A stretch of DNA of 64,000 bases from assembly GCF_025698545.1 (NCBI RefSeq), contig NC_068571.1, positions 50,687,733-50,751,732 of the forward strand. The letters are read 5' to 3'. The stretch is from Gossypium raimondii (Eukaryota; Streptophyta; Magnoliopsida; Malvales; Malvaceae). Position numbers and translations under genes: made by a program. Numbering within the stretch: the first letter of the stretch is position 1; each line of letters starts with the position of its first letter. Positions 2,682 to 35,514 of the stretch are shown here, piece by piece. A model generated the notes under the pieces. That model did not search any database. It was not told where the DNA came from and saw only the letters and a program-made list of their open reading frames with translations.

Positions 2682-2876
2682 ACACCATAAATTCATAAAA
2701 ATCCTGTCTTACGCTCTTCTTCCTCGTAATTTCATCACGTTTAATACTAAAAATATTCCTTCCTGCCAATAGTTTAATATTGCTGGAAGCACACTTTTTT
2801 GTAGACCTCAGGAAAGTATTAAACGTGATGAAATTACGAGGAAGAAGAGCGTAAGACTGTTATGAATTTATGGTGT
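2682..2876. repeat. Long near-perfect inverted repeat (hairpin) upstream of the receptor kinase gene
   Basis: The left arm (2682-2748) and right arm (2815-2876) are reverse complements. An inner block of 43 bp pairs perfectly (2706-2748 with 2815-2857), and an outer block of 17 bp pairs perfectly (2682-2698 with 2860-2876). The blocks are separated by a small asymmetric bulge, and the loop is 66 nt (2749-2814). The hairpin ends 162 bp before the start codon of the GH18 receptor kinase, so it could lie in its 5' UTR or core promoter. No target-site duplication is obvious. It could be a small foldback transposon, a young MIRNA or siRNA-producing hairpin, or a local inverted duplication. Confidence 0.9.
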
Positions 2877-3038: not shown

Positions 3039-6000
3039 ATGGTTATGGTACCCAAGTTTATCATACTTCTCTATATTTTTCTCTCTTTAGGACTCAATCC
3101 ATCACGAGCACAAACCTGGATTCAAGCTGGTTACTGGTATTCCGGCACTGACTTCCCCATTGCCGATATAAATTCAGCTCTTTTCACTCACCTTATTTGC
3201 GCTTTTGCTAACATCAATGCCTCATCCTATCAGCTCTCCGTTTCTTCTTCCGATGACCAATACTTCTCTACTTTCACAAACACAGTCAAACAAAAAAACC
3301 CATCAGTCACCACGCTTTTATCCATTGGAGGAGGAAGTGCAAACCATTCAGTCATAGTTTCAATGGTAAACAATTCGTCCCATAGGAAATCCTTCATTGA
3401 TTCCTCAATAAAAACAGCTAGGCTTTACGGCTTCCAAGGCCTAGACTTTAGCTGGGCTTCAGCCAACACAAGCTCCGATATGAGCAATATGGCTGCTCTC
3501 TTCCAAGAATGGCGTGCTGCAATAGATTCAGAAACGGGTCAGTCTAAGTTGATATTAACGGCTGCAGTTCCAACCTCTAAATATTCAGAGTCGTCTACTT
3601 ATCCAATAGACTCATTGAGGACGAACTTGAACTGGTTACACGTTAGTGCCTTCAATATATACATGCCAACACGGGACAACTTTACGAGAGCTCATGCAGC
3701 ACTATATGACCCAACCAGTAATTTCAGTGCAGATTTCGGTATAGAATCATGGATTACTGGAGGACTACCAGCGAATAAGTTGGTTTTGGGTCTGCCTTTT
3801 TATGGCTACGCGTGGACACTAGTCAACCCCAGGGATAACACGATTGGCGCACCAGCATCAGGGCCGGCTATATCAAAAACTGGGGAGATGGCATACAAGG
3901 ATATAAGGAATTATATTCAAAGTTATGGAGCCAATTCAGTGTATAATGATACTTTTGTAGTGAATTACTGCACCGTAGGAACCACCTGGATTGGTTTCGA
4001 TGATGTTGAGGTTGTCAAAGTCAAAGTTTCCTTTGCCAAGGAAAGGAAGCTGCTGGGCTACTTTGTGTGGCAAGTTCCCAATGACGCCAACTGGTTGCTT
4101 TCGCAAACTGCAGGTATGCTTACAAGAGTTTTCGTGATACTTTTATCAAAATACAATGAAGAAGAAGCTCACCAAGCCAGCTTGAGAAGGACCAAAAAAA
4201 AAAAAAAGGAATTAGTTAACTAAGAAAAACTATAATCTAAAGAGGCCATAGAAATAAACATCATGAAATTAATGAAAAAAGAATCTTTCTGGCAAGCTTT
4301 CATTATTTATTTATTTTTAAATCTGTATCAGTTGATGTCAATGGTGAGAATGGTACAGAGAAAAAAGGGCGGTTGTCGTTGATTATTATATTGGTTCCAG
4401 TCACTGGGGTCTTGATTTTGATCGGGGCATTGACGTACTACATTCGAAGGACAAAGAATAAGAAGAAAGGTATTTATTTCGAGCTATCTCACTTAACTGC
4501 ATCATTCACTATTCCCTCTACATTATTTAGCAGTAAATCTCTAAACTTCGATCCTGTTGATTTATGTAAATAGAGTTCCGAGTACAAAGCAGTTTATTCA
4601 TGAATGTTTTTTGGTTGGTTAACAGATGCCGAGTACAAAGCTAAAAATTCCAAGTCCAAAGCAAATCTTATGACAGAAGCTGGAGATTTCAACAGCAATG
4701 CTCCTAATCTGATGGTTTATAGATTCTCTGATATTGAGGTGGCCACTAATAGGTTTTCATTTGAAAATAAGCTTGGGGAAGGTGGATATGGTCCTGTTTA
4801 CAAGGTAAAGCTAAGCTATTCTAGCTATTTGATGTAAAATTTTGGAAATTACATTGCACTTTTCCAAGGAACTGTAAATAATTAAATTCCCATTTGCCAG
4901 GGTGTCTTATCAGATGGACGGGAAATAGCAGTAAAGAAACTTTCGAAAACATCTACACAAGGATTTGAAGAGTTTAAGAATGAGGTCATGCTAACAGCAA
5001 AACTGCAGCATGTAAACCTTGTTAGAGTTTTGGGATTCTGCATTGAGAGAGAAGAACATATGCTGGTCTATGAGTTTATGCCAAATAAGAGTTTGGATTA
5101 CTACCTTTATGGTAATTTATAGTTAATCTATAAGCAATTGAATTACTGGTTGAACAATAACTGGTTAAATCTTATCTTAGTTTTCATTTATGATGAATGT
5201 TTCATTGTCTACAGATCCAATAAAACGGTACATGTTGGATTGGGAAAAACGTGCTGAAATTATTGAAGGAGTTACTCAAGGGCTTCTATATCTTCAAGAA
5301 TACTCGAGATTGAAAATTATTCATAGAGATTTAAAAGCTAGCAACATTTTACTAGATGAAGAAATGAAGCCCAAGATATCAGATTTCGGAATGGCTAGAA
5401 TTTTCTCTAAAGATGAAGTTGAAGCCAACACACACCGCATTGTCGGCACATAGTAAGTTAATTCTGAGAATACGAAAACTGAGTGTGGACATTGATACTT
5501 TGTTTTGCTTTTGCAGTGGTTATGTTCCTCCTGAATATGTTAAAAAGGGTTTATACTCCATCAAATCAGATGTATATAGTTTCGGGGTCCTACTTCTTCA
5601 GATCATAAGTGGACGAAAGACCGCATGTTTATATGGATTACATGAAAATTTGAGTCTTCTTGAATTCGTAAGTCTCAACATGATCTCTATACCCTTTTTC
5701 AATATCATTAAGTTGTGAAGATAATTGAATATAATGTTTGAATAAAACTCAGGCATATGGACTATGGATACAAGAGAAAGGCATGGAATTCATGGATCCC
5801 ACACTGGATGACACAAATTCATCATGCACGTTATTGAGATGCATGCAAATAGCTTTGTTATGTGTGCAGGAAAATGCCAATGACAGGCCTACCATGCTGG
5901 AAGTGTCGTCGATGCTTAGAAATGAAACCACACCGATGGCCAACCCGAAAAGACCTGCTTTCTCAGAAAGAACCAATGAAAATGATGAACTAAAGAGATT

Positions 6001-6064
6001 GAATTTGAAACCTGAAATATGTTCAATCGATGATGCGCCCATATCAGAAGTGGTTGGTCGATGA
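3039..6064 (+). CDS. GH18 chitinase-like receptor Ser/Thr kinase (CHRK1-type), catalytically dead ectodomain
   Basis: Seven exons fit in phase: 3039-4113, 4332-4469, 4626-4804, 4901-5111, 5215-5452, 5517-5667 and 5753-6064, giving 767 aa. Residues 1-24 are a signal peptide ending SRA. Residues 25-358 are a GH18 domain (GYWYSG start, LLSIGGG strand). Residues 373-396 form one membrane helix, followed by a basic stop-transfer stretch. The kinase spans about residues 448-720, with glycine loop [10 protein letters not shown], Lys476 in [12 protein letters not shown] (Asp573) and DFG (Asp591), all intact. The GH18 motif DxxDxDxE reads QGLDFSWA (133-140): the acid/base Glu is Ala140 and the neighbouring Asp is Ser138. 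The later active-site MCYDY segment is also changed, to SAFNIY. Chitin hydrolysis is therefore not expected. The layout matches tobacco CHRK1, a plasma-membrane receptor kinase with an inactive chitinase-like ectodomain. Ligand binding (chitin or another glycan) is an inference. Confidence 0.93.
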
Positions 6065-9473: not shown

Positions 9474-11058
9474 ATGATGGCAGGAGGCTCTATCACATAT
9501 TTTCAGCCCCTTGCCGTTCTCATTCTTTCCTTAACCATACCTATATCTACAAGAGTTGTAATGGCGTCGCCACCGGCTGTCAAAGCAGCTTATTGGCCTT
9601 CATGGACGACGTTCCCGCCATCAGCCATAGATACAATCTTGTTTACTCATATTTACTACGCCTTTCTCATGCCAACTGACACCTACAAATTCGAAATCTC
9701 AACTTCAACAGCTCTAGAGCTTTCTAATTTTACCACCACCCTCCGCCGCAAGAATCCACCGGTAAAAACCCTTTACTCCATCGGCGGCGGAGGTACTGAT
9801 TCTCATCTCTTTGCTCGCATGGTTTCAAATGAAAAGTCACGTCAAACCTTTATAAATTCAGCTATAGAGACTGCCCGAGGACTTGGTTTCGATGGGATGG
9901 ATTTGGATTGGGAATTCCCTGAAAACCCAACAGATATGAAAAACTTGGGCGTTTTGTTTATGGACTGGCGACGAGCTATCAACTACGAGGCTAGAAAAAC
10001 CCACCGTGCTCCGCTACTTCTCACGGCGGCGGTTTACTTCTCGGTCGACTTTTTCTTGGATGAAGTGTATAGAAAATTCCCAGTATGGTCGATTAATCAA
10101 AACTTGGATTGGATAAACGCAATGTGTTACGATTACCATGGAAGCTGGGACACATCAGCGACGGGGGCCCATGCAGCACTTTATGACCCAAACAGCAACA
10201 TAAGCACTAGTTATGGGCTTAGGTCATGGATCAAAGCCGGTCTGTTTAGGAGCAAGCTGGTAATGGGTTTGCCACTTTATGGGAAGACATGGGTGCTAAA
10301 GGATCCGAATTCGAATGAGATCGGGTCAGCTGCGATTAGTGTGGGTCCAGGAGATGTTGGGGTGCTTACGAATGTGGAGATTGAGGAGTTCAACAAGAAG
10401 AATGGAGCCAAAATAGAACATGACATGGAAACTGTTTCCACGTATTCATATGCGGGTTCAGTATGGATTGGGTACGATGATTCTGTATCAGCAACCTTGA
10501 AGGTTGGGTTCGCCCAGGCACTTGGGATTCGTGGCTATTTCTTTTGGGCTATTGGCTACGATAGCGAGTGGAAAATCTCTAGATACGGTAACACTCACAT
10601 TTTATTTTTCTCTACTTAATTTGTCTATAAGAATTAGAGAGTGTGATTAAGTGATTTAGTTACATTCAATTTAATAGGATTGAGACCATAGCTACCTACA
10701 CATTAGGCATGTATATAATAACAAATAATTACCATCAAATTTAATTATTATTTGACTTTTTATGCATTGTCATTCATAAGGATCTTTGGATTTACATATG
10801 AATATATTAATAATTTATTTCGCTTAAATACAATAGGACGATAAATTTAACTATTTATATTTAATTTTAGAGATTTTTAATAAAATACTTTGCATGTGGT
10901 TGAATGTTAGTGTATAAATTCATATATGACCGGTGTATTAAATGCAAATTTAATAGGATAATTGGGTTCAAGCTTAAACCTGCGACATGATTTAATTAAG
11001 ATTCAATCTATGCTTTGATGTTTTTGCAGCTTCAAGAGCGTGGGTTGTTGGTGAATGA
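9474..11058 (+). CDS. Secreted class V (GH18) chitinase
   Basis: Two exons, 9474-10587 and 11030-11058, joined in phase, give 380 aa, the usual length for plant class V chitinases. The start is the first ATG of the frame; an apparently longer frame from 9441 opens with TTG. Residues 1-30 are a hydrophobic signal peptide, followed by the mature start near SPPAVKAAYW. Strand SIGGGG lies near residue 102. The catalytic motif is complete, DGMDLDWE at 140-147, with Glu147 as acid/base, and MCYDYHGSW is present further on. The product should be an apoplastic or vacuolar endo-chitinase that cuts beta-1,4-GlcNAc chains in defence. The tiny last exon encodes only the C-terminal residues ending WVVGE. 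It is a paralogue of the ectodomain of the receptor kinase 3.4 kb upstream, with which it shares long stretches such as the HAALYDP region. Confidence 0.93.
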
Positions 11059-12852: not shown

Positions 12853-13932
12853 ATGGCAGCAATAAGATTTGAAATTGAAAATTTCGATGGTGAGACAAAT
12901 TTTAATCTGTGGCAAGTTCGGATGATGGCAATTCTAGTTCAAACTGGCTTGAAAAATGTTGTTATCAGGAAAAAGCCTGAGAACCTAAATCAAACAGAAT
13001 GGTAAGAGCTTGATGAAAAGGCCTTGTTCGCAATCCAGTTGTGCCTCGCGAATACAGTATTGTAGGAGGTATTGATGGAGAAGACCTCATCTGTCTTGTG
13101 GAAAAGGTTAGAAATTCTTTATGCGACTAAGTCCTTGACTAACCGTTTAGTGTTGAAACAACATCTATTTACGTTTCGCATGAACGAATGTGAGCTTCTT
13201 AGAGACCACACCAGTCAATTCATTACTCTTTTAAATGATTTAAAGAATGTTGAGGTTCATATTAACGATGAAGATTAGGCTATGCTATTATTGTGCTCTT
13301 TACCCACTTCATACAAGTCTTTTAGGGAGACCTTGATTTATGGTAGAGACAAACTCTCGTTCGAAAATGTGAATGATTATTTGTTGAGTAGAGACAAACT
13401 CAACAATGAGTTTGGTTTGGATAACAAGGTAGATAGGCAGGCTTCCGTTTTGGTAGCATCAAAGAAACGAGACAAAAGGTGTCGTTACTGTAAAAAGTTA
13501 GGTCACGTCAAAGCAGATTGTTATAAACTGCGAAATAAAAGAGCTGCTGAGAGTAATGAGGAATATGTATATGGTGCTAATTTGGCCAATGAAAGTGGTG
13601 ATGATTTCTTATTAGTGTCAACGAGCGACAACTCCAAGCTTACGTCCGAGTGGATCCTATATTCGGGACATTCTTTCCACATGTGTCCTAATAGAGAATG
13701 GTTCTCCACATACAGTTCGGTTGAAGGTGGAGTTGTGGGCATGGGAAACAATTCATCTAGTAAGGTAATTGGTATTGGAACTGTTAAAATTAGTATACAC
13801 AATGGGACGATTAAGACACTCTCAGATGTCAGGTACGTACCTGGTTTACGAAAGAATCCCATCTCCTTGAATCTTATTGAGTATTTTAGACTTGAAAAGA
13901 TGCAGAATCAACATCGAGTCGAGCGACATTAA
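12853..13932 (+). pseudogene. Copia gag / protease N-terminal frame, broken by three stops
   Basis: One continuous frame starts at ATG 12853 and is interrupted by in-frame stops at 13003, 13063 and 13276. It encodes a copia-type gag, with an N-terminal FDGETNFNLW segment and a SVLWKRLEILYATKSL helix. The zinc knuckle CRYCKKLGHVKADC (CX2CX4HX4C) is intact, at about 13480. The following protease start has YSGHSFHMCP where the family has an Asp-Ser-Gly triad, so the catalytic Asp is Tyr. The capsid protein cannot be made from this copy without readthrough, and the protease would be inactive. Confidence 0.85.
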
Positions 13933-20700: not shown

Positions 20701-23700
20701 AAACCATTGAAGTGGGAAAGGGCTTTGCTTATTATTGTTAGACAGTTATTAACAGAAGAAACTAAGAATGGTTTCATTTCATCCGATCTACTTTCTCAAG
20801 CTCCCACATATCCATGACCTAGCCCAAAAAGAGTCAAAGACACATCATCATCCAACCTACTTAATCTTTATTCCTTAACTTCAGTCAGCAAACTTCATCT
20901 AAAAGTAAGGTTTTAAATATTTCTCTGGTATTTTTATTTTCATTCAGTCATTTTTAATTCCACCCTTTTTATTAAGGAGTCCAGAAAAAAATGTTATTAT
21001 CTATTATTTTTGTTACTTTTTCTGATAAGGGACGGGTATGCTTGTGATTGGAATTCTTAGAAATTAAATGATGAGAATACTTGTCAGGTCCCTCTATTAT
21101 AAGGACTGGTTTAAATCAATCCTCTACTATTAAATTATCAATTTAATCCTTGTACTAGTAAAAAATCAAATAAAGTTAAAATTTTAAACAGTAAATATTA
21201 ACTCTGTTAAAATCTGAACTGATTTGGTTCCTTTCACTAGTATAGGGACTAAATTGGGACTAATTTAAACCAATCCCAATAATAAAAAGACCTGCCAATT
21301 ACATTCACTGAAATTAAACTATCATCTATATTATTCTTTGTAATGCTTTTTATCTAGTTTTTTTTCCCCAAAAATTGTATTATCTTAGATTTAATTATAA
21401 TTTTTTTTCAAGGCAAAAGGTTAGTTCAAGCTTGAGTATGGAAATTTAGTAAACAAGCCTAATCAAGTCAAGCTCAAGTAGTTCAAATTTATCTCGAGCT
21501 TAGCAAATGATACTTGATCAAACCGAGTATCGAGCCACAAGTTCCAAATCAAGCTCAAGCTTACCACTATTTATGCTCAGTTTAACTATATTACAGCCCC
21601 ACTTAGAACTGTCAAAGTAAACGTAATAAATAGTAACAAGCATACTAAATATAACTTTCTGCTAGATGAATGCTGGTCCATTTATTTAATTATCTACAGA
21701 AGTAAGGCTAAATGTATCCTATAAGAAAAACCTACAAGATATATACAATTTTGCTCAGAATAAAAAGTATTCCTTTAGCATAGGAATAGCTAACCCATAG
21801 CAGGAAAAATTATGAATACAGAAAGCTACTGTTTACTTTTATACATTTTACCATTAAATTTTGAGAATGTAAAATGAAAGATCTAGAAGGATAACACTGA
21901 ATTGTAGTAGTAAGGCTTTTGTGCACAATGAGTCAAAGAAAATGAAAAAATAAAAACCAAAAATCACAAATGCAGCAAAATTGCTAAAAGCGAATCAATT
22001 TCACACAATGTTACAACACAGTTGCAAAGAAAGGGGAGCAAAATACAAACCCTAATATAATACCTGAACTAGAGACCTTGGATGCAATGCAATTTTATCT
22101 GTGGCTGTATCAACTTTGAACCAGTCAACAGCTATTAGTTTGAGAAGGGGATCTGAACCCATTATCTGTGAAAAAGGTTTACACCATTAATTGATTCTCA
22201 ACAGAATAACCAGTATCTCAGCAGGAACAAGGAATGATAGGCCAACATCACATATATACTAAAACCAAAGCAGGAGGACTGTCCCTCTGTCAGATGTGAA
22301 ACAAAAAGATTTTTTTCCATCATAAGAAAAGCCATAATTCCTTATTTGCATTTAAAGTTGCACATTATTTCACAAAAAATTCATTACGCCAAGATAATAA
22401 CAGTTTCAAAGCAATCAAAGAAAGCTAAAATTAAGAAATGAATCAAAATGTGATAATAGTTCAAACAAAGCACCTGAAACGACTGAACTAAACCAGAGGG
22501 TCTCAAATTTTAAACCAAACAAAGACTACAACAGTGAGACAGCAAATACCACTAGCACATACACATGTAAAGCCAATTTCAGTTCAGAATTTAAAGGAAA
22601 CTAAATCACACTGGTGACCCATCATAAACAGAATTAATTGCAACTGGAAAACAAAGCAAACTTATCAACTCAGGAGAACAGACAGAATGTGTAGCACTTC
22701 AGTCAAGCAGACACTGACTGTCATTCCAATGTCCATCTCATTTGCCATAATAATATACTAGAAAATCAAGCTTCGATCTTTTGCCAACAAGCATATGGTT
22801 TGTTGGTAGACTGTTGGACTCTTAGTTCCAATGACCAAGGATCAAACTCTGGCAATCCATATATATTCATACTTTGATTATATAAAATAAATAGATGAAT
22901 GCACCCAAAACAAGTAAAACAAGGCAAATGGATGTAAAATGATTTAGAAGAAAAGGAACACTCACTTTGGCATTATCTTTTAAGTAAGTCTTTCCTCTTA
23001 TCATAAATCCCGTACCACTAGGAGAAGTCCAACAATTTGAGTCAGTCTCATCCCTTCCTTTATGGAGGGAACCACTGAATTGGCTTGCATCAACATGGAC
23101 AGAAGGTACAGTAGGATCCAATTCCTTATTTGCATCAGAAGCTGCATACGCAGTGACCTCATACTTAGCATAAGGTAATAGCTCACAAATGTATTAAGGA
23201 TAAGACATTGTTTAAGCTATAAGCTATAATTATTTGTTACTGACAACCAAAAATGAAAACAGAGTGCATGAGTCAATAGTGACAGATTTCCTCCATAAAA
23301 TTTTCCTTTTCAAATAAGAATAAAAGGTAAAAGCAGATTGATCTTTTGCAATACAAATTTTAAGAAAAGAAAGAACCTGAAACTCGCTTCAAAGCTAAGC
23401 TTGAGATGGCCCATGATACATTCTTCAGCTTAAATTTCTGTTCATGATAAAGTTGAGAGCAAGCTATCAACGACAGAGGTTTTTAAGAAAACAATTAATA
23501 TATCTGTTAGATCAAATAGTACAACAAATTTTAACTCTTCTTTGGGAGAAAGGTGAGGCACTTGTGATTTTCATTGAGGCAAAATGGAATTACCTTCTTC
23601 TCTGTATCATCCTCACTCTCTTCATCTTCTGAAGATGAAGTAGAATCACCAGCAATTGCATCATAGAATTCATCCTGCACTTCTAAATCCTCAAACTCGC

Positions 23701-26700
23701 TGCTGGAAGTTGAAACATCAGAAAGTTTTGACTGGACAACCGTGGCGGAAGATTCAAAACTCAGTGATGGATTTGCTCCAATATATTCCTTTAACCCTGA
23801 AACATATTTACAAGGAGATTTAACTACAATACAGGGGCAGAGGCATAAATGATATCTGTGGCAAAATCCTGCAGGTTTTGACCCTGCATTTAGATGCGTT
23901 TTTACAGTAACTCCTAAAAAATAGTCATTTATGTTCTCGGTGTAGCCAGCAATCAACATCTGCGTGCAGTGTTAGGAAAGAAAGGTATTCCTTTATGGCC
24001 ACACTGTCAGAAAGTCTAGCAATATATACTCATTATAAACTATAAAATGGTTCAGTCAAACATCAATCCTGTTCAATAGATTTTACCACTGAAGATAGTC
24101 CATCATGGCCAGATCATGAAAGCCCTAGGGATAGGAAAAAATAGTTGGGTATTTGAAGATCAGTGTAGTTAGGTTGTCTTAGCTGATCACGTCTCTAAAA
24201 TGCATAAGAAATCTGAAGCCCGGCAGTCTAATAGAGAGAGAAGATATGAATTCCTGAGACAACATAACTAGATGTCTCTAAGTCATTACTTGTTAATATC
24301 AGATCATAAGTCAGATGATAAGAACTTGATCAGATAACTAAACCTGCCACTTGTGATAATAAAGCATATGGGATGGTCTGTTCAAACTTTGAGCTGCTAT
24401 TTTTCTTCCATCGAAGCCATCCAGAAGAATGAATCTCCAACATATGTGTTACAAGACATTTTGTGGTGTTTGAACCCATGGGCGAATTTAAACTTCTAAC
24501 CTCCCACGTAGATGCTGCCATCAACAAACATAGAGATATATATTATGAACAGAGATAAAGCAACACGTGGTCTGTTTACTAATGAAACCTATAAAAGGCT
24601 TATCTCATAGTGCTCCACGGCCCCCTAGCACTACCTTATGAACAATTGAATTGCCGCATAATGGAAATAGACCTCTAAAACTAGCATTTGCTGCTACCAA
24701 TAGAACATACAAAAATAATCACATTTACATGGATCAATCAATCCCTTCAAAATTTTAAGTATGTAGAGGAAGTAGAGATGCAAATAAGAAAGATAGCATT
24801 TCCTCTTATTTTAGATGCACTGTGCATTCAAGCAATAGAGATCAATACAGACTTCAGATAGAAAACAATTTTCCAACTAAGAATACAGATTCTTACGGTT
24901 AATTGGTGTACGACGGTATCCAGATCTTGAAGGCCGCTTCTTATGTACAGCTGGAAGTTGCAAAATTGCTGCCAAAACAAACATATATCATATGTGAGCA
25001 AAAAGGAGCAAAGTTAATAAACTAAAAATATTATCAACATATTATCTCTTACTGTATGCCCCATCTTGCCCTCGAAACCACTGCCTAGTGAAGACAAAAT
25101 CTCTCTTGGATTGCCATCTAGAAAACATGCAATATGACAAATAAATGCAAGCCAATGACAGAAGAGACAAGATTCATGCCAATTTGATTAGTTGATGATT
25201 AACTGAGGAAGTTAATATTGTTCAACCTCTAATTACCACTATCTGTTTTAAAAAGAAAAATAAATATCATTTAACTCTTAATTATCACTATCTGTTTTAG
25301 AGGAAAAGAAAAAAATCGAGGATACATCAAATCAATCATAAGTACAAACTCTGGATTTGCTTGATAAAGTACACTTGATATGGTTACTACATGTGCACTA
25401 CACATTGTGGGAAAATGGTGCTTCAGAAAGTAGTAGCCCCTTCTGCAAAACTTACCGAGTAAGATATTTTGGATCATATGTTCCATAGACAACATCATAG
25501 TGTCCATCATAAGAATCTATCAGCTCCAAGTCAGCAGTCAACATATCCCACCTGTGAAGATCATTAGTTGAGAAACCAAACTTGCATACTGGGAATATAA
25601 AATCGAGGAACATAGAAGGAACAACTTACTCATATCTCTTACGGCGTTCCAGATTTAAGATTACTTCAAAAGCGGTATCTGCGCTTGCATCTACAAGACC
25701 AACAGCCTTTACAAGGGCACCTTTTCCACGCTATAAATGTTCAAAGATAATTTAAAGAAAAGAATGACTCGTTCATCTGATGAAGAGTAATTGTAAAATT
25801 TTGATATTGTTTAGGAATATAAGAACAAGCGACCAATGATTATTTGAACACAAAAGAAAGCTGCAGCAACAATCACAAGCACTGAAAAATTTTAAATCTA
25901 CAACTTCAATTAGCAATATCTGTAAACTGCATGTTTGGCACTGAGTTAAGTTTTAACTGCTAAGTTAATAATTAAAGTTGCTTTATCATCAATGTTCCTG
26001 TACATATTTTCTCAACATGAATGGAGTAAGGCTAAAGTTCCAAACTTCCAAAAAGTATGTGGGAAAGCCTATCACGACACTTGTCCTAAATGAAAAAGGA
26101 AATAATAAGTATGATCCCATAAGTACCTTAGAATCAGCCACATCCTCGAAGATTCTAATACCTGAAACCAAGCAGAAACCAAACTATTAAATGGTTATAC
26201 AAAAATTGTTTCTCTATTAGGACCACACCATTTTCTCAGCATATTGAGCAACCCAAAGTAAATTACAGATTCAAAATTTTCATCCTCCACATCTTAAGGA
26301 GCAGAAAGTTTTAATTGCAGTAAAACATTAACAGTGACAGTATAAGAAATACATCATTACAGATTTTCCAGTTCAGTACGGATTATTGTCTACAGTGCTT
26401 TTATATAGATGATTGCTCCAATCCAAAAGTTTGATCCTATTGGTATTATTTACACTTCAATATCTTGACATTTTTTTTTTTGGATTAATGCATTTTGTTT
26501 TAACCAAAAGAAAAATGTGTAAGCATACCATTGACTGTACGAACACATTTCCATTCATGTGCTTCAATTGCATCTCCAAACTCCCCTTCAAAGTATCTAT
26601 TTGACGTACCACTACCACCCAAGTTTGAGGTTTGCCTCAAAAGCATTTCTGGACCTATGACAGCCAAAATAAAAGAAAACTACAAATTTAACTCGGCACT

Positions 26701-29700
26701 ATAAAATAATTATATTAAGTACAAAAATCATTAAAACATACATATTAGAAACATAAAAAGCAAGTCTTAAAATTTTAAAATAAATAAAAAGAAGCCCTTC
26801 ATATCAACTAATTCCTAATTTAACTTCTCACTTCCTCACACAGGTTTTTGCATGGATATGACGCGGTAATTCTTTTTCAATCTCTCCAAATCACAAATTT
26901 TCTACAGAACATTTATTCAAGGATTTTCTGCGCTTCACATGACAAAAATGCACGCCTAAAAGGCTGAAATCTCTAACACCAACATGTTTTCAATTTTAAG
27001 AAACCATTATCTTGATTGTCAATATCCCAAAGTCAACTATTTTGGAACTGTCCGACTGAACTAACATGCATACTTAACTTCTATCACCGTCATTTAAGAT
27101 TGGAAAATTCCAGCAAGACAGTAACTAAATAATGCTTTGTAGAATGTAGACTATGAGATGCAGCATTTTCTTTAACTGAAGATTGAAGCATAAAGCATTA
27201 GTTTACCATGATCCGACAGTAATTTTATTGGTAATATCTAAAAGCTGCACATAAAACTGCACTTGAAATAGTTTTCCATAATAATTTACATGAGGAAGCA
27301 TACTGACTATGATACACTAAGAGATCATTTTATACAACAAAGTGGACATAGCAGAATCCTTTTTTAATGCAAAAGATGCAATGGCCCAAAACCATAATGA
27401 TGACAACTACCAACTCACCTTTTCCAATTCTTATAAGATTTTTTAATCCATGTGCATACCGCCTTACTCGTGGTCGATGGCCATCCAAATCAATACTTCA
27501 AAAGAAAACAGGCAGAGTAATTGATGTTTCTTCCAAAATAGAATGTAGGCAAAACAAAGTATAATTTGTAGAACAGTTGAAGAAACTAGAAAACAATTTG
27601 ACTTTGTTACAGGTGCCTACTAGCTATTATACCTTATAGTTCAGCTACATGGTCAAAATAAACATATATATTGAAATTAAATCACCAGTCAAAATACCAA
27701 AACCAAAATTTTAGCCTCAGCTTAAGTTAACATCAAAGAACTATGTAGTTATACAGCATTTTATTCTATTATTAGTCTCTTCTGAACCTATAATTGGAAT
27801 CTATTAATGGAAATCCCCCCCCCCCCCAATCTTCACCATACAGTCAGGATCCATAAAATTTGTCTAAAATCAGTCTTTAATTATTAGCAAACTCAAGTAA
27901 GGCTACTATAGTAAGATGGCCAAGGAAAAATGGCTTACTCAGCCTCCATGTTTAATTTGTTTCTGGTACTACCTCCTCTTGAAAGCTCATATTCAGCCTG
28001 TCAAAATAGGTGGCAAGTTACGTGAATGCATAAGAAAAATCATAAGGAAAATAAATTCTTCTCTTCTAGGAAAGCAACCACATATATGATTCAAATCATT
28101 TTAACTGACTTCCTTGTACCTGTTGCTTGGCATGATCAAATGCTTCCATCCATTTTCGAGCTTCTCCAGCTGTTGGACAAGCAATCTTGAAGCAGAAAAA
28201 TGCTAAGTTAGTCATAAGACACTTCAGCACACAAGACTATCTAACCATTAATAAGAAAAGTAACTTAAAGAGCTAATTTTCTGTAGAGAAAAAGTAAAAG
28301 TTGTCATTTTCCCTGTCCTATGCCAAGAAGTAACATCACCGGAGGAACCAACAAAATGTAACATGGACTCACCATAAGACATGAAGGACTTGCAGACAAA
28401 ATTTTAAAGGGAAAAAAATATGGTTTTGATTACTGAAGCGATCACATTTATGGGAGCAATATAATCAAAACTCAAGAGAAAATTATATTCTCAGAGAGGT
28501 ACAAGAGGTTTTCCTTCTAGTTGCCGTAGGAGAATGGGGATCCATTATCTCTTTCCAAACAGCTAGGTTCAAAGATGGATTATTGTCGCACTCAATGGCA
28601 GTTTGAAGTTGAACAAGAACAAAGCGGTTCAGCTAGTCAGCTTTAACCAGGAATGACAAGCTGTCCTAGTGATTCAGTTGCACTTATAAAAAGAACTAAA
28701 AATAAAGCCAGCCAAAAAGCTAAATAATAAGTCAATAAGGTTAATATATCGCCAGGATGCCCATAGAAATAGTAGTCCTCATAAGCCAACCAGGTATATT
28801 CTTGTCAATAATTGCATCTTCCCTTTTATATTACATGCTAGGCAAGAGGAAATACTTATAAAGCTTCTCAATCAGTTACTGATCCCAACCACAGGATTTA
28901 ATATCTTTTGACATCTTTCAAAATTAATTGAAGGGAGAGGTTGAAAATATGAGCCAAGGCAAGCATGCTATCACCCAAACCATTTGTATAATAACTTGAA
29001 AACTTACAATTTCCAACAACTCGACAAACTCAAAGATTATACATACCAACAGAATGCCATATGTCATGCACAATAAAAGCCAAAATCTAGCAACCATTAT
29101 CAGTTCAATCATTTGAAACAAACTTACTTCTCCTTTCTTGGACTCATCCAATCGATTGTAGAACTGTATAACATATAGATCCTACAAATAGTTAACAAAA
29201 GAAAACTGTCAAGTCTGACATGAAGATTGATTGACCATAAAAACATTAAAATAGCCAATCGAAAAGCAAATCACGAAGCAATGAAAAAAAGCTTAGACAA
29301 CCAACCACCTGAAAGAGCAAGTGGGAAAAAGAAAACTGAAAAAAGAAGAATGAGAATCACAATATCCTATCTAAGAGCAAAGTTTTGAAAGAAAAATGAT
29401 AGTGAATAATATCAATGAACTAAGCAAACAATGATTACTACACACTTACCCCGTCATTGACTTTTCGCCGTCCTAACTCCTCCACCATCAATGTAGGTCC
29501 TATGACACCCTTTCTAATAGGTTTCTGGACAAGATAACATATCAGAAACCAATAATTCATAAACAATTAAATTGGAAGAATGGTCCGACCCAAAGTAATT
29601 GCTTCTTCAAGCACATTGGCAAGAGATAATAAAAAACAAGCAAGAGAGTTGAAAACAATTTCCTCATATAATATTGTATTTGAAGGTTTTTCATGCATAC

Positions 29701-30873
29701 CATCATGATAAGTAAATAAATAAAGGTCTCCTTTCAAATGTGATTACAAAGAAGACAACCTTGAATTTGAACTTTGTAATTGGATGCCTACATGAGTTGT
29801 CACTTTCCAATAACAGAAGACAGTTCTACTATCAAAGCCCCAAGTTGAGTAAGAGGCATTTAGAGCCTTTTTTCATAACAATGTAAAGGCAAGTTAAATT
29901 CTATAAAGAACTGAAATTGATACTTCTAAAAATAAAATAGTGAAGCCATGTTATTTAGATCATGTAACCCTTAAAAGGCCACATATCAACGAACTTTAAT
30001 CAGCTCTCCGCAAACTCCAAAGAGTCTAGCCTTCTAAGAATAGCACTCTCTTCTGAATGGTGACCTCCTAGAAGCAAATAAATTAGTTCCAGATAAAATG
30101 TTGCAAATGCTTCCTCATTCAACTTATATATTAAATTTTTAACCAGGTTTTCTTATCTGAGAAAACAAATACTAACTTCTTAAAGGATGAGCACGATTCA
30201 TAAAGATTATATACTTCCTCAACAGCAATGCATTTAACCTTCTTTTTCCTTACCGTGCCTATGCTAAATTAGCTTAAGGCAGCCTTCTTTTCCCTCACTC
30301 TACTAATTCAACAAAGTTGGGAGATATACCAAATAATTAGACCCCAAACTCAACAATCTCAATGTCAATCCATTCACTGGAACACCCTAACTAGAAGGAA
30401 GACTACCTAAATAAGTTCTTTAATTGTCAATAATCAATATCCTTCAACAGCTCAAGAATCCAAACAATGAACAAATCAGCATAACTTAAAAATTACATGG
30501 CAGGCATATACATAATGGCAAGCTCCAATAAATCCAAAAAAACAGAAAAGGAAGTGACGAGACGTACAATACCGGGGTTCTCGTGAGGATCTCTTTTGTA
30601 CATCATTACGTATTTGCCCTTTATAAAGAGGAAGCGAAGATGACAATACTCGTGGCCGATCGAGTTGGCTCCAATATGATACACCCATCCGAAAATTTCA
30701 TAAATCCCCTTCTCATCCCCACCATAGCTGGCTGTAGGGGTATGCCTATGTTTAGGAGCCCCTTTAGTATTGGCGTCGCCGCTGCTACTGCTTCCGTTGC
30801 TGCCATCCAACAACACTTCTTTCTCCTGTCCTCCCTCGCCTCCCTCCTCCTTCAACGCCTTTGTTGTTTCCAT
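17771..30873 (-). CDS. EDR2L: EDR2-like protein: PH - START - DUF1336 (775 aa, 22 exons)
   Basis: Exons in transcript order: 30568-30873, 29450-29524, 29128-29181, 28120-28185, 27939-27997, 27419-27495, 26529-26654, 26127-26161, 25630-25730, 25456-25551, 25053-25117, 24897-24968, 24344-24514, 23594-23796, 23377-23437, 22966-23141, 22064-22165, 20140-20187, 19451-19594, 19260-19355, 18621-18722, 17771-17863. Their 2328 nt close in frame with GT-AG borders. A low-complexity Ser/Gly N-terminus precedes a PH domain (about 57-165; YEIFGWVYHIGANSIGHEY, then ARKWMEAFDHAK helix). A START lipid-binding domain follows (about 225-430; DISF-equivalent strands YEWDMLTADLELID, TRQWFRGQDG), then an acidic Ser-rich linker (about 455-501) and DUF1336/EDR2_C (about 503-770; FMIRGKTYLKDNAK, YWMVKRAVGTKACLLGKAVTCKY, IDVDIGSSSVARSV). 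Arabidopsis EDR2 binds phosphoinositides and restrains salicylate-dependent cell death. This gene looks closer to the At5g35180-type paralogue, from memory, so its exact role is open. Confidence 0.95.
21084..21296. mobile_element. MITE in an intron of the EDR2-like gene
   Basis: About 213 bp with imperfect terminal inverted repeats of roughly 38 bp. The left end begins CAGGTCCCTCTATTATAAGG and contains GGTTTAAAT; the right end is its reverse complement with about 75% identity. There is no coding capacity. It lies in the 1.9-kb intron between exons 17 and 18, the longest intron region of the DUF1336 half. The superfamily was not determined. Confidence 0.7.
27815..27827. repeat. Poly-C run (13 C) in an intron
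   Basis: Thirteen consecutive C on the + strand (poly-G in the EDR2-like transcript) in otherwise AT-rich intron sequence. Such homopolymers are prone to length error in sequencing. Confidence 0.85.
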
Positions 30874-31607
30874 ATTCTAAAAACTCAGTTCCAATGAGAA
30901 AACAAAATTTCAATTGGGTTTTGATTTAACCTGTAGCTTTCTTCCCAATTTTTAAAAAAATTTAAGTTGGTTTTAATTTATCAAAAGCGGATCTGAGGGA
31001 GAGAGACAGTAGATTGCAGCTAAGGGAAGAGATGAAATGGAAGAATATATTCTTATTTTCGCCATTCTTTGGTTTTTTACTTTTCATTTATAGATGTGTT
31101 GGCAAATGGGTCAAGTTTACAAAAATTAAAATTTTAATCCTCCTAATTTAATTTATCAAAATTTATCTTACAAAATTAAGAAATTAATTCAATAAAATAA
31201 AAGTATTGAAAAAAGTAAAGGGATGAAATTCATCAATAAATTTCTTGTTTTTATTTCGAGTAAAATTAAATTTGTAAAAATATATATTCAAAGTGGTCAA
31301 CCCCGTCGAGAAATGATAAGAAAAGAAAAACGAACGTTGGAGTTGCCAGTTGCCACATATGAACAGTTGGTGTTCGGTTAAGAAACTGTCATTGCAGGTG
31401 CAGGCAGGAACCAATGAAGTAGGCAATTTTGTTTTTCCTTGACGTGGCGAAATCTTACTGAATGCAGCAGTGGAGTAGGTCCCACACGTCCATGACACGG
31501 AAACCATCCTTACCAAGTTTTCAACGCCCTGTTTCTTCTCTATGTTCCATTGTAGTTTATTTTGTAATTTATAATAATGACATCAAATATCAAAATAAAA
31601 GGTAAAA
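30874..31607. other. 5' flank and promoter region of the EDR2-like gene
   Basis: No further gene is seen. A GAGAGAGA-type purine stretch lies near 30998, in the expected 5' UTR/promoter zone. Beyond 31300 the sequence is unremarkable up to the LINE remnant. Confidence 0.5.
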
Positions 31608-34655: not shown

Positions 34656-35514
34656 TTATGCACCCACTTTTCCGATCCTCAGATAAATCGGGAATTTAAC
34701 CAGTTTTTGCCCACCATTTTCATCTTCACCCCAAGCACGCTTGAACTCTTCAACCACATGCTCGCTCAAAAGCTCCACACCCTTCTCCTTAGCCTTCTGA
34801 TACGCGGACCATGATCTTAAGTAAGTAAAGTAATCCTCTAAACCCATCCATCTCTCATTCTCAAACTCAAACGGTCCTGTACTATCCTCTCCATCGACTG
34901 CCTCAAACGGAAAATCGATGGTTTTGTACTTATCATCCACCATCTGTCGCGCTGAATCCCAGTATGGGTTTTTGTAAAATCGTTCAAGCACCTTGTCCAT
35001 GGAGTCGTTGACTTCTGGGGTGGTGTAGCACCATGCCGCGATGATCCCATGGGGTTTCTTCAATACCCATTTCACCTGTTTGTAAAATACAGGAAGGTCG
35101 AACCAGTGCATGGCTTGGGCTATGGTCACTAGATCTACACTTGATTCTGCTCCCACTTTTTGTTCAAGCTCGGCCGAGGACATTGTTGGTGAGGTTTGTT
35201 GGTATCGGATATTGGGGAGTTTTGTAGCAAATTCAAGCTGTTTTGAGCTCGTGTCTGTTGCTATCACATTATTGTAAATCTCAGCCAACTGAAAAAGAAG
35301 AAATACTTGATTAATCTTCAAGCGACAGTGTTGAATTGCTATAAAATTAAAATTTTATACTTACAGATCGAGCAGCCTGACCACTACCAGTGCCGACATC
35401 CCATGCAAGATCTTGTTGGGAAGTCTTTGAGGCAATGAATTGGAACAAGTGTGGTGGGTAGCTTGGTCGACCTTGTGCGTACTGCTCTGCTTGCTTGATG
35501 AACAAATTTGCCAT
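34656..35514 (-). CDS. SAM-dependent methyltransferase, type 11 (DDB_G0268948-like)
   Basis: Two exons, 35365-35514 and 34656-35288 (intron 76 nt), give 260 aa. The start is the ATG giving MANLFIKQAEQYAQGRPSYP; an upstream in-frame extension to 35568 would have to begin at TTG. Motif I (AWDVGTGSGQAARS, residues 37-50) is the SAM-binding loop. It is followed by an acidic strand end (VIATDTSSKQL), and motif VDLVTIAQAMHWFDLPVFYKQV is the hallmark of this family of small cytosolic methyltransferases. KPHGIIAAW is the post-motif strand. The substrate is unknown for nearly all plant members. The CDS shows no frameshift or stop. Confidence 0.93.

Follow-up and report, generated by a model that had tools for sequence, protein, structure and literature searches.

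What can a receptor kinase do with a chitinase domain that has lost the means to cut chitin? The question is raised by a gene, here called R1, in a 64,000-nucleotide stretch of the Gossypium raimondii genome (contig NC_068571.1, or C7, positions 50687733-50751732; hereafter the window). R1 (window 3039-6064, forward strand) carries a class V GH18 ectodomain ahead of a Ser/Thr protein kinase. On our reading of the sequence it is probably a GH18/CHRK1-type receptor kinase of the plasma membrane, with predicted location and activity, in which a dead hydrolase would bind a ligand and signal through the kinase. The architecture itself was already known; what is added here is that the loss of both catalytic acids is common to all five GH18-kinases found in this genome (R1 to R5).

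Architecture and active site of R1

R1 consists of seven exons (2304 nt) encoding 767 amino acids with no internal stops, and all six of its introns are GT-AG. Its parts are as follows.

3039..4113, forward strand: exon 1, signal peptide and complete GH18 ectodomain (residues 1-358), followed by a phase-1 intron
3129..4085, forward strand: Pfam Glyco_hydro_18 match, residues 31-349, E 1.8e-63
3435..3458, forward strand: degenerate catalytic motif QGLDFSWA, residues 133-140, with codons AGC for Ser138 and GCT for Ala140
3645..3656, forward strand: degenerate MxYD motif SAFN, residues 203-206, its Asp lost; the tandem twin R2 (NAFD) keeps the Asp
4068..4070, forward strand: Trp344 of strand beta-8, which R2 keeps as well; R3-R5 have Phe here
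4332..4469, forward strand: exon 2, transmembrane exon
4373..4435, forward strand: transmembrane helix at residues about 373-393 (a mean hydropathy of 2.74 in a 19-residue span), with RRTKNKKK directly after
4626..4804, forward strand: exon 3, juxtamembrane region and glycine loop (GEGGYG at 4775-4792)
4901..5111, forward strand: exon 4, with the VK lysine, Lys476, at 4934-4936
5215..5452, forward strand: exon 5, with HRD (571-573) at 5322-5330 and DFG (591-593) at 5382-5390
5517..5667, forward strand: exon 6, with PPE (618-620) at 5527-5535 in the APE position
5753..6064, forward strand: exon 7, with the C-lobe of the kinase, the tail and the stop codon TGA

The seven-exon GH18-kinase gene proposed in a first-pass annotation, made from the sequence alone, was borne out by the reading frame, the GT-AG introns, the Pfam domains and four paralogues of like structure. 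A chance join or mis-annotation of R1 was rejected, since those paralogues agree with it both in their number of exons and in their intron phases. The N-terminus is hydrophobic and fits a signal peptide, as judged from hydropathy and by eye, and the kinase domain occupies residues 449-718 (Pfam, E 1.8e-46). No lectin, S-locus or PAN domain was found in the R1 protein with Pfam at E 0.01, the extra matches being two weak kinase-like families below cut-off. The frame of exon 1 continues through another 36 codons of intron 1 before reaching a stop (window 4114-4223), and a transcript retaining this intron would yield a secreted, membrane-free ectodomain.

The solved structures nearest to the ectodomain are AtChiC (At4g19810, 3AQU) and NtChiV (3ALF), followed by the Robinia agglutinin 4URI. 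The GH18 motif names, strand labels and residue roles applied to R1 are those in general use for the family. FQGLDFSWA of R1 aligns with FHGLDLDWE of AtChiC and NtChiV, placing Ser138 at the assisting Asp and Ala140 at the catalytic Glu, in agreement with the substitutions first proposed. The accompanying description of a lost DxxDxDWE motif holds for these two acids and fails at its first D: AtChiC and NtChiV themselves have His there, and the Gln of R1 is therefore no loss. SAFNIY, put forward as a second active-site segment, does align with MAYDFY of AtChiC and NtChiV, and its change is partly recent, as seen from NAFD in R2 versus SAFN in R1. R1 thus has neither the DxDxE acids nor the MxYD/MxFD of strand beta-6 by which an active class V chitinase is recognised. 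A GH18 protein that lacks the two acids has no substrate-assisted mechanism open to it, so the R1 ectodomain most probably serves for binding.

The glycine loop, VK lysine, HRD and DFG of the kinase are all intact, as first described; the APE motif is not, its position reading PPE. Where APE is usual in most kinases, all five receptor kinases have PPE, and the S-domain relative described below has SPE.

The receptor family and the origin of the fusion

The 750.8 Mb assembly, in 281 contigs, was searched with the PF00704 profile. Among the matches listed there were 30, of which 11 span nearly the whole profile (E 3.3e-49 or better); the remaining 19 are partial (E 1.9e-20 or worse) and probably mostly class III-like. 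Five of the 11 near-complete matches precede kinase exons, giving at least five GH18-kinase genes in the genome, and for the other six (S1-S6) no kinase match was found in the stretch fetched around each. The paralogues lie at the following places.

C7:50679053-50682069: R2, tandem twin of R1
C13:54156281-54160494: R3
C13:54183280-54186496: R4
C5:3942679-3939567, reverse strand: R5
C7: soluble paralogues S1, S2 and S3
C13: soluble paralogues S4 and S5
C5: soluble paralogue S6
Window 9474..10587, forward strand: exon 1 of S3, a neighbouring soluble class V-type chitinase with intact DGMDLDWE and MCYDYHG
Window 11030..11058, forward strand: last exon of S3 (ASRAWVVGE), after a phase-1 intron at the place of receptor intron 1

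The five receptors (767 to 776 aa) contain no stops and have identical intron phases (1,1,0,1,2,0). From R1 to R5 the assisting-Asp position reads S, S, C, F, F and the catalytic-Glu position A, V, F, V, V. Both acids are lost in 5/5 receptors found and kept in 6/6 soluble class V-type paralogues as well as in AtChiC, NtChiV and the Robinia agglutinin (RobpsCRA), counts that refer to related genes and not to independent events. The receptors form one clade in the GH18 tree with ultrafast bootstrap support (UFBoot) of 100, and for this reason one early loss of both acids would be the simplest account. In the kinase tree, which took in 10 of 28 other kinase loci, R1-R5 were held together at 98 with the same branching order as in the GH18 tree. 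The combination of a dead chitinase fold and a live-looking kinase, first noticed in R1, is supported across all five members found, with HLD for HRD in R3. In both trees the R3 branch is also longer than that of R4, and R3 may be a receptor of the non-RD kind or one in decay.

The pattern of erosion was examined over the 64 columns that are invariant in eight soluble sequences (S1-S6, AtChiC and NtChiV). All five receptors retain 40 of these; another 20 differ in some of the receptors and four in every one, the last being D138, E140, M203 of MxYD and the Tyr at 312 (R1 numbering). Three of these four fall in the two active-site motifs. Much of the scaffold has therefore been kept, with catalytic residues foremost among those released. 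Together with the ectodomain ratios given below, the 40 kept columns support the earlier proposal that selection retained the fold and not the hydrolase. The AYD of MxYD reads AFN in R1 and AFD in R2; since S4-S6 have this Phe as well, the one loss among these three residues is that of the Asp in R1. The possibility that all of the R1 active-site loss is old was rejected, the MxYD Asp having been lost in R1 alone.

Among 11 compared, the nearest kinase outside the receptor family is that of an S-domain receptor kinase (C5:53844.5-53847.6 kb), whose kinase domain is 58-59% identical to those of R1, R4 and R5; it came from a search favouring single-exon kinases, so that a closer kinase may exist. 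Its ectodomain contains B_lectin, S_locus_glycop and PAN_2. In this one such gene compared, exons 4 (211 nt) and 5 (238 nt) match those of the receptors in length, the first two introns are in phase 1, and exons 4-7 run in frame with the receptor intron phases, the start of exon 3 not being fixed. On the chitinase side, an intron of S3 matches receptor intron 1 in place and phase, and S5 and S6 fit by acceptor search; no second exon was found in S1, S2 and S4 by the phase-1 acceptor pattern. S3 itself was rejected as parent of the R1 ectodomain, being 38% identical to it (AtChiC 48%) and lying outside the group of receptors and AtChiC.

The simplest account of these structures would be a one-time join of a chitinase exon to an S-domain kinase with later duplication. 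A chitinase exon with a phase-1 donor may have replaced the S-domain/lectin exon ahead of the transmembrane and kinase exons, in a single fusion through a phase-1 intron in the common ancestor of the five receptors. The fused gene would have duplicated afterwards, and hydrolysis would have been lost before the fusion or soon after it.

Selection, ligand and rival explanations

The tandem pair formed by R1 and R2 is recent, with a synonymous divergence (dS) of 0.05. Their kinase is under purifying selection, with four nonsynonymous changes in 640 sites versus nine synonymous in 170 and a ratio of nonsynonymous to synonymous divergence (dN/dS) of 0.11 (Fisher p 2e-4). The ectodomain has 23.5 nonsynonymous and 13.5 synonymous changes (dN/dS 0.50, p 0.046 with rounded counts) and has changed more than the kinase (24/775 versus 4/640 nonsynonymous sites, p 8e-4). 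The ratios are 0.43 for the ectodomain and 0.16 for the kinase between R3 and R4, and 0.14-0.26 and 0.07 to 0.12, respectively, in eight distant receptor pairs, where they are rough because dS is saturated (>1.2).

The R1 and R2 ectodomains differ at 22 residues, nine of them within one 40-residue stretch, and a clustering scan returned p values of 0.059, 0.077, 0.016, 0.064 and 0.105 for windows of 20, 30, 40, 50 and 80 residues. In region 136-220 dN/dS is 0.68, indistinguishable from 1 (p 0.75). There is only a hint here of groove diversification between the two copies. Compared with outgroup genes, eight of the 22 differences look private to R1, four look private to R2 and 10 are undecided. 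The R1 branch in the GH18 tree is 3.3 times that of R2 (0.048 versus 0.014), as relaxed constraint on R1 could also explain; the R1 branch of the kinase tree (0.008) is no longer than that of R2 (0.011). Over the 1 kb compared, the upstream regions of the two genes can be aligned only for about 40-140 bases before the start codon, ending between window positions 2900 and 3000. A perfect 43-nt inverted repeat (window 2706-2748 and 2815-2857, 66-nt spacer) precedes the R1 start codon by about 180 bases. One other, partial copy was found in a genome search (96% over 88 bases, C7:50672974-50673062), about 6 kb upstream of R2.

In the explanation that we favour, the groove of R1 would bind its ligand without cutting it, and binding would activate the RD-type kinase. 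The likeliest ligands would be chitin oligomers, lipo-chitooligosaccharides or other N-acetylglucosamine glycans, with a protein ligand as an alternative. Signalling output is likely because the kinase keeps its catalytic motifs and is constrained. Glycan sensing is plausible by analogy, because the mammalian protein YKL-40, with Ala138 and Leu140 at the two catalytic positions, is inactive and still binds chitin, whereas Ym1, another inactive GH18 protein, has lost chitin binding (PMC11190707). The example of Ym1 weighs against such sensing, as do several features of the family itself. R3-R5 keep AYDY and lack SIGG and the beta-8 Trp, and the loss of the MxYD Asp is private to R1; because of these losses, the old active site may bind sugar only weakly or not at all. 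Also to be set against the favoured explanation are a review in which the CHRK1 ectodomain is called a predicted enzyme (PMC5485988) and a structure prediction of the R1 ectodomain that, from a two-row alignment, reached a mean predicted local distance difference test score (pLDDT) of 36.9, too poor for use.

It is possible, though we think it unlikely, that R1 senses a protein or peptide on the surface of the barrel, such as a chitinase-targeting pathogen protein or a plant partner, and that this ligand does not bind in the dead groove. Erosion of the old active site took one path in R1/R2 and another in R3-R5, the Met of MxYD and Tyr 312 have changed in all five as if a sugar groove were not needed, and the weak clustering of R1/R2 differences, at scan p values from 0.016 to 0.105 depending on window size, would also suit such sensing; the retention of the beta-8 Trp and SIGGG in both R1 and R2 argues against it. 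R1 could instead be a decaying duplicate with a drifting ectodomain and R2 the working copy, which we consider improbable. The long GH18 branch, the excess of ectodomain differences apparently private to R1 (8/22 versus 4/22, the MxYD Asp included) and the differing upstream regions, with the inverted repeat in that of R1, would favour decay, whereas the intact reading frame and splice sites, the unlengthened kinase branch and the low kinase dN/dS oppose it, although constraint on R2 alone could supply part of the last.

There is very little to be said for an ectodomain that is still an enzyme, using another acid/base residue or another substrate. The label given to CHRK1 in the review points that way, as does the substrate shift that MtNFH1 illustrates for class V proteins (PMC4967823); however, the Glu and assisting-Asp positions are non-acidic in all five receptors, and MtNFH1 retains the DxDxE motif (PMC4967823). 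Nor do we give any appreciable chance to exon 1 and exons 2-7 being two genes wrongly joined, which would accommodate the open frame running into intron 1 but not the recurrence of the same join, frame and phases in four paralogues or an exon 1/exon 2 phase equal to that of the S-domain kinase. A wider conjecture, which we regard as quite a long shot, starts from the receptor-bearing loci on C7, C13 and C5, each of which also holds a class V-type chitinase with an intact catalytic motif. The GH18 kinases would be a dedicated family of non-cutting receptors with grooves diversifying between tandem copies, and the linked chitinase may release the glycan that the receptor senses.

Neighbouring features and known relatives

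Elsewhere in the window, one open reading frame (ORF) within 22867-30876 on the reverse strand matches EDR2_C at E 6.4e-5, below cut-off; nearby ORFs on the same strand are EDR2-like by eye only, and two of those tested had no Pfam match. EDR2 and the class V chitinase cluster of Arabidopsis presumably lie in the same part of chromosome 4, and the block in the window may be syntenic with it. A remnant of a copia-type retroelement (13279-13932, forward strand) matches Pol_BBD at E 3.4e-26, its gag match being below cut-off, and a methyltransferase fragment (34656-35354, reverse strand) matches Methyltransf_11 at E 9.9e-6.

LysM receptors are known chitin sensors of plants, and a second class of receptor, derived from an enzyme, is known mainly from one tobacco gene. 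This gene, CHRK1, which the first-pass annotation rightly gave as precedent, resembles R1 in joining a kinase to an ectodomain that is like a class V chitinase but lacks the catalytic Glu, and it is without chitinase activity (PMC10573068). CHRK1 belongs to a different species and is likened to R1 by its published description, not by sequence. The same source states that no Arabidopsis receptor-like kinase (RLK) was seen with a chitinase-like sequence (PMC10573068). No publication on R1 was found in literature searches, including a cotton-specific one, most subscription literature being outside their reach; one directed at kinases within surveys of the GH18 family likewise brought up no paper.

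GH18-kinases at large share the combination of domains found in R1. Bellande et al. counted 91 such plant sequences and left CHRK1 out of the lectin kinases, its ectodomain being predicted to be enzymatic (PMC5485988), and a ten-species survey of RLKs and receptor-like proteins lists Glyco_hydro_18 as one of the six commonest additional domains (PMC7333395). In soybean, GmGH18-18, -20 and -32 carry kinase domains, and GmGH18-18 and -32 also have a PAN-linked motif (PMC11855358), unlike R1, in which no PAN domain was found with Pfam. A cotton kinome study counts 129 kinases of the DLSV group for G. raimondii, and nowhere in its main text is the word "chitinase" used (PMC5955557). The S-domain (SD1, G-type lectin) receptor kinases, represented by the one gene compared, are like R1 in kinase and intron phases; that gene has B_lectin, S_locus_glycop and PAN where R1 has GH18.

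The ectodomain belongs to the same fold family as AtChiC (48% identity, E 3.2e-98) and NtChiV (46% identity, E 2e-92), which keep DLDWE and MAYDF, whereas R1 is membrane-anchored and without both acids. RobpsCRA (4URI; E 5.1e-85 to the R1 ectodomain) is likewise a plant class V-like protein and is a lectin (PMC4967823); it differs from R1 in keeping DxDxE, in having no kinase in the searched sequence and in lying outside the receptor clade. The mammalian chi-lectins provide a parallel from another kingdom, in that YKL-40 lost the same two catalytic positions as R1 and binds chitin, and YKL-39 binds chitooligosaccharides (PMC11190707). These are soluble animal proteins, and their loss would be independent of that in R1. 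A non-cutting chitinase-fold receptor is a sharp hypothesis, with R1 and R2 as a pair differing at 22 ectodomain residues. In contrast to the predicted-enzyme label that the review attached to CHRK1 (PMC5485988), none of the five receptors found here, 0/5 of which keep both acids, could be an enzyme by the known GH18 mechanism.

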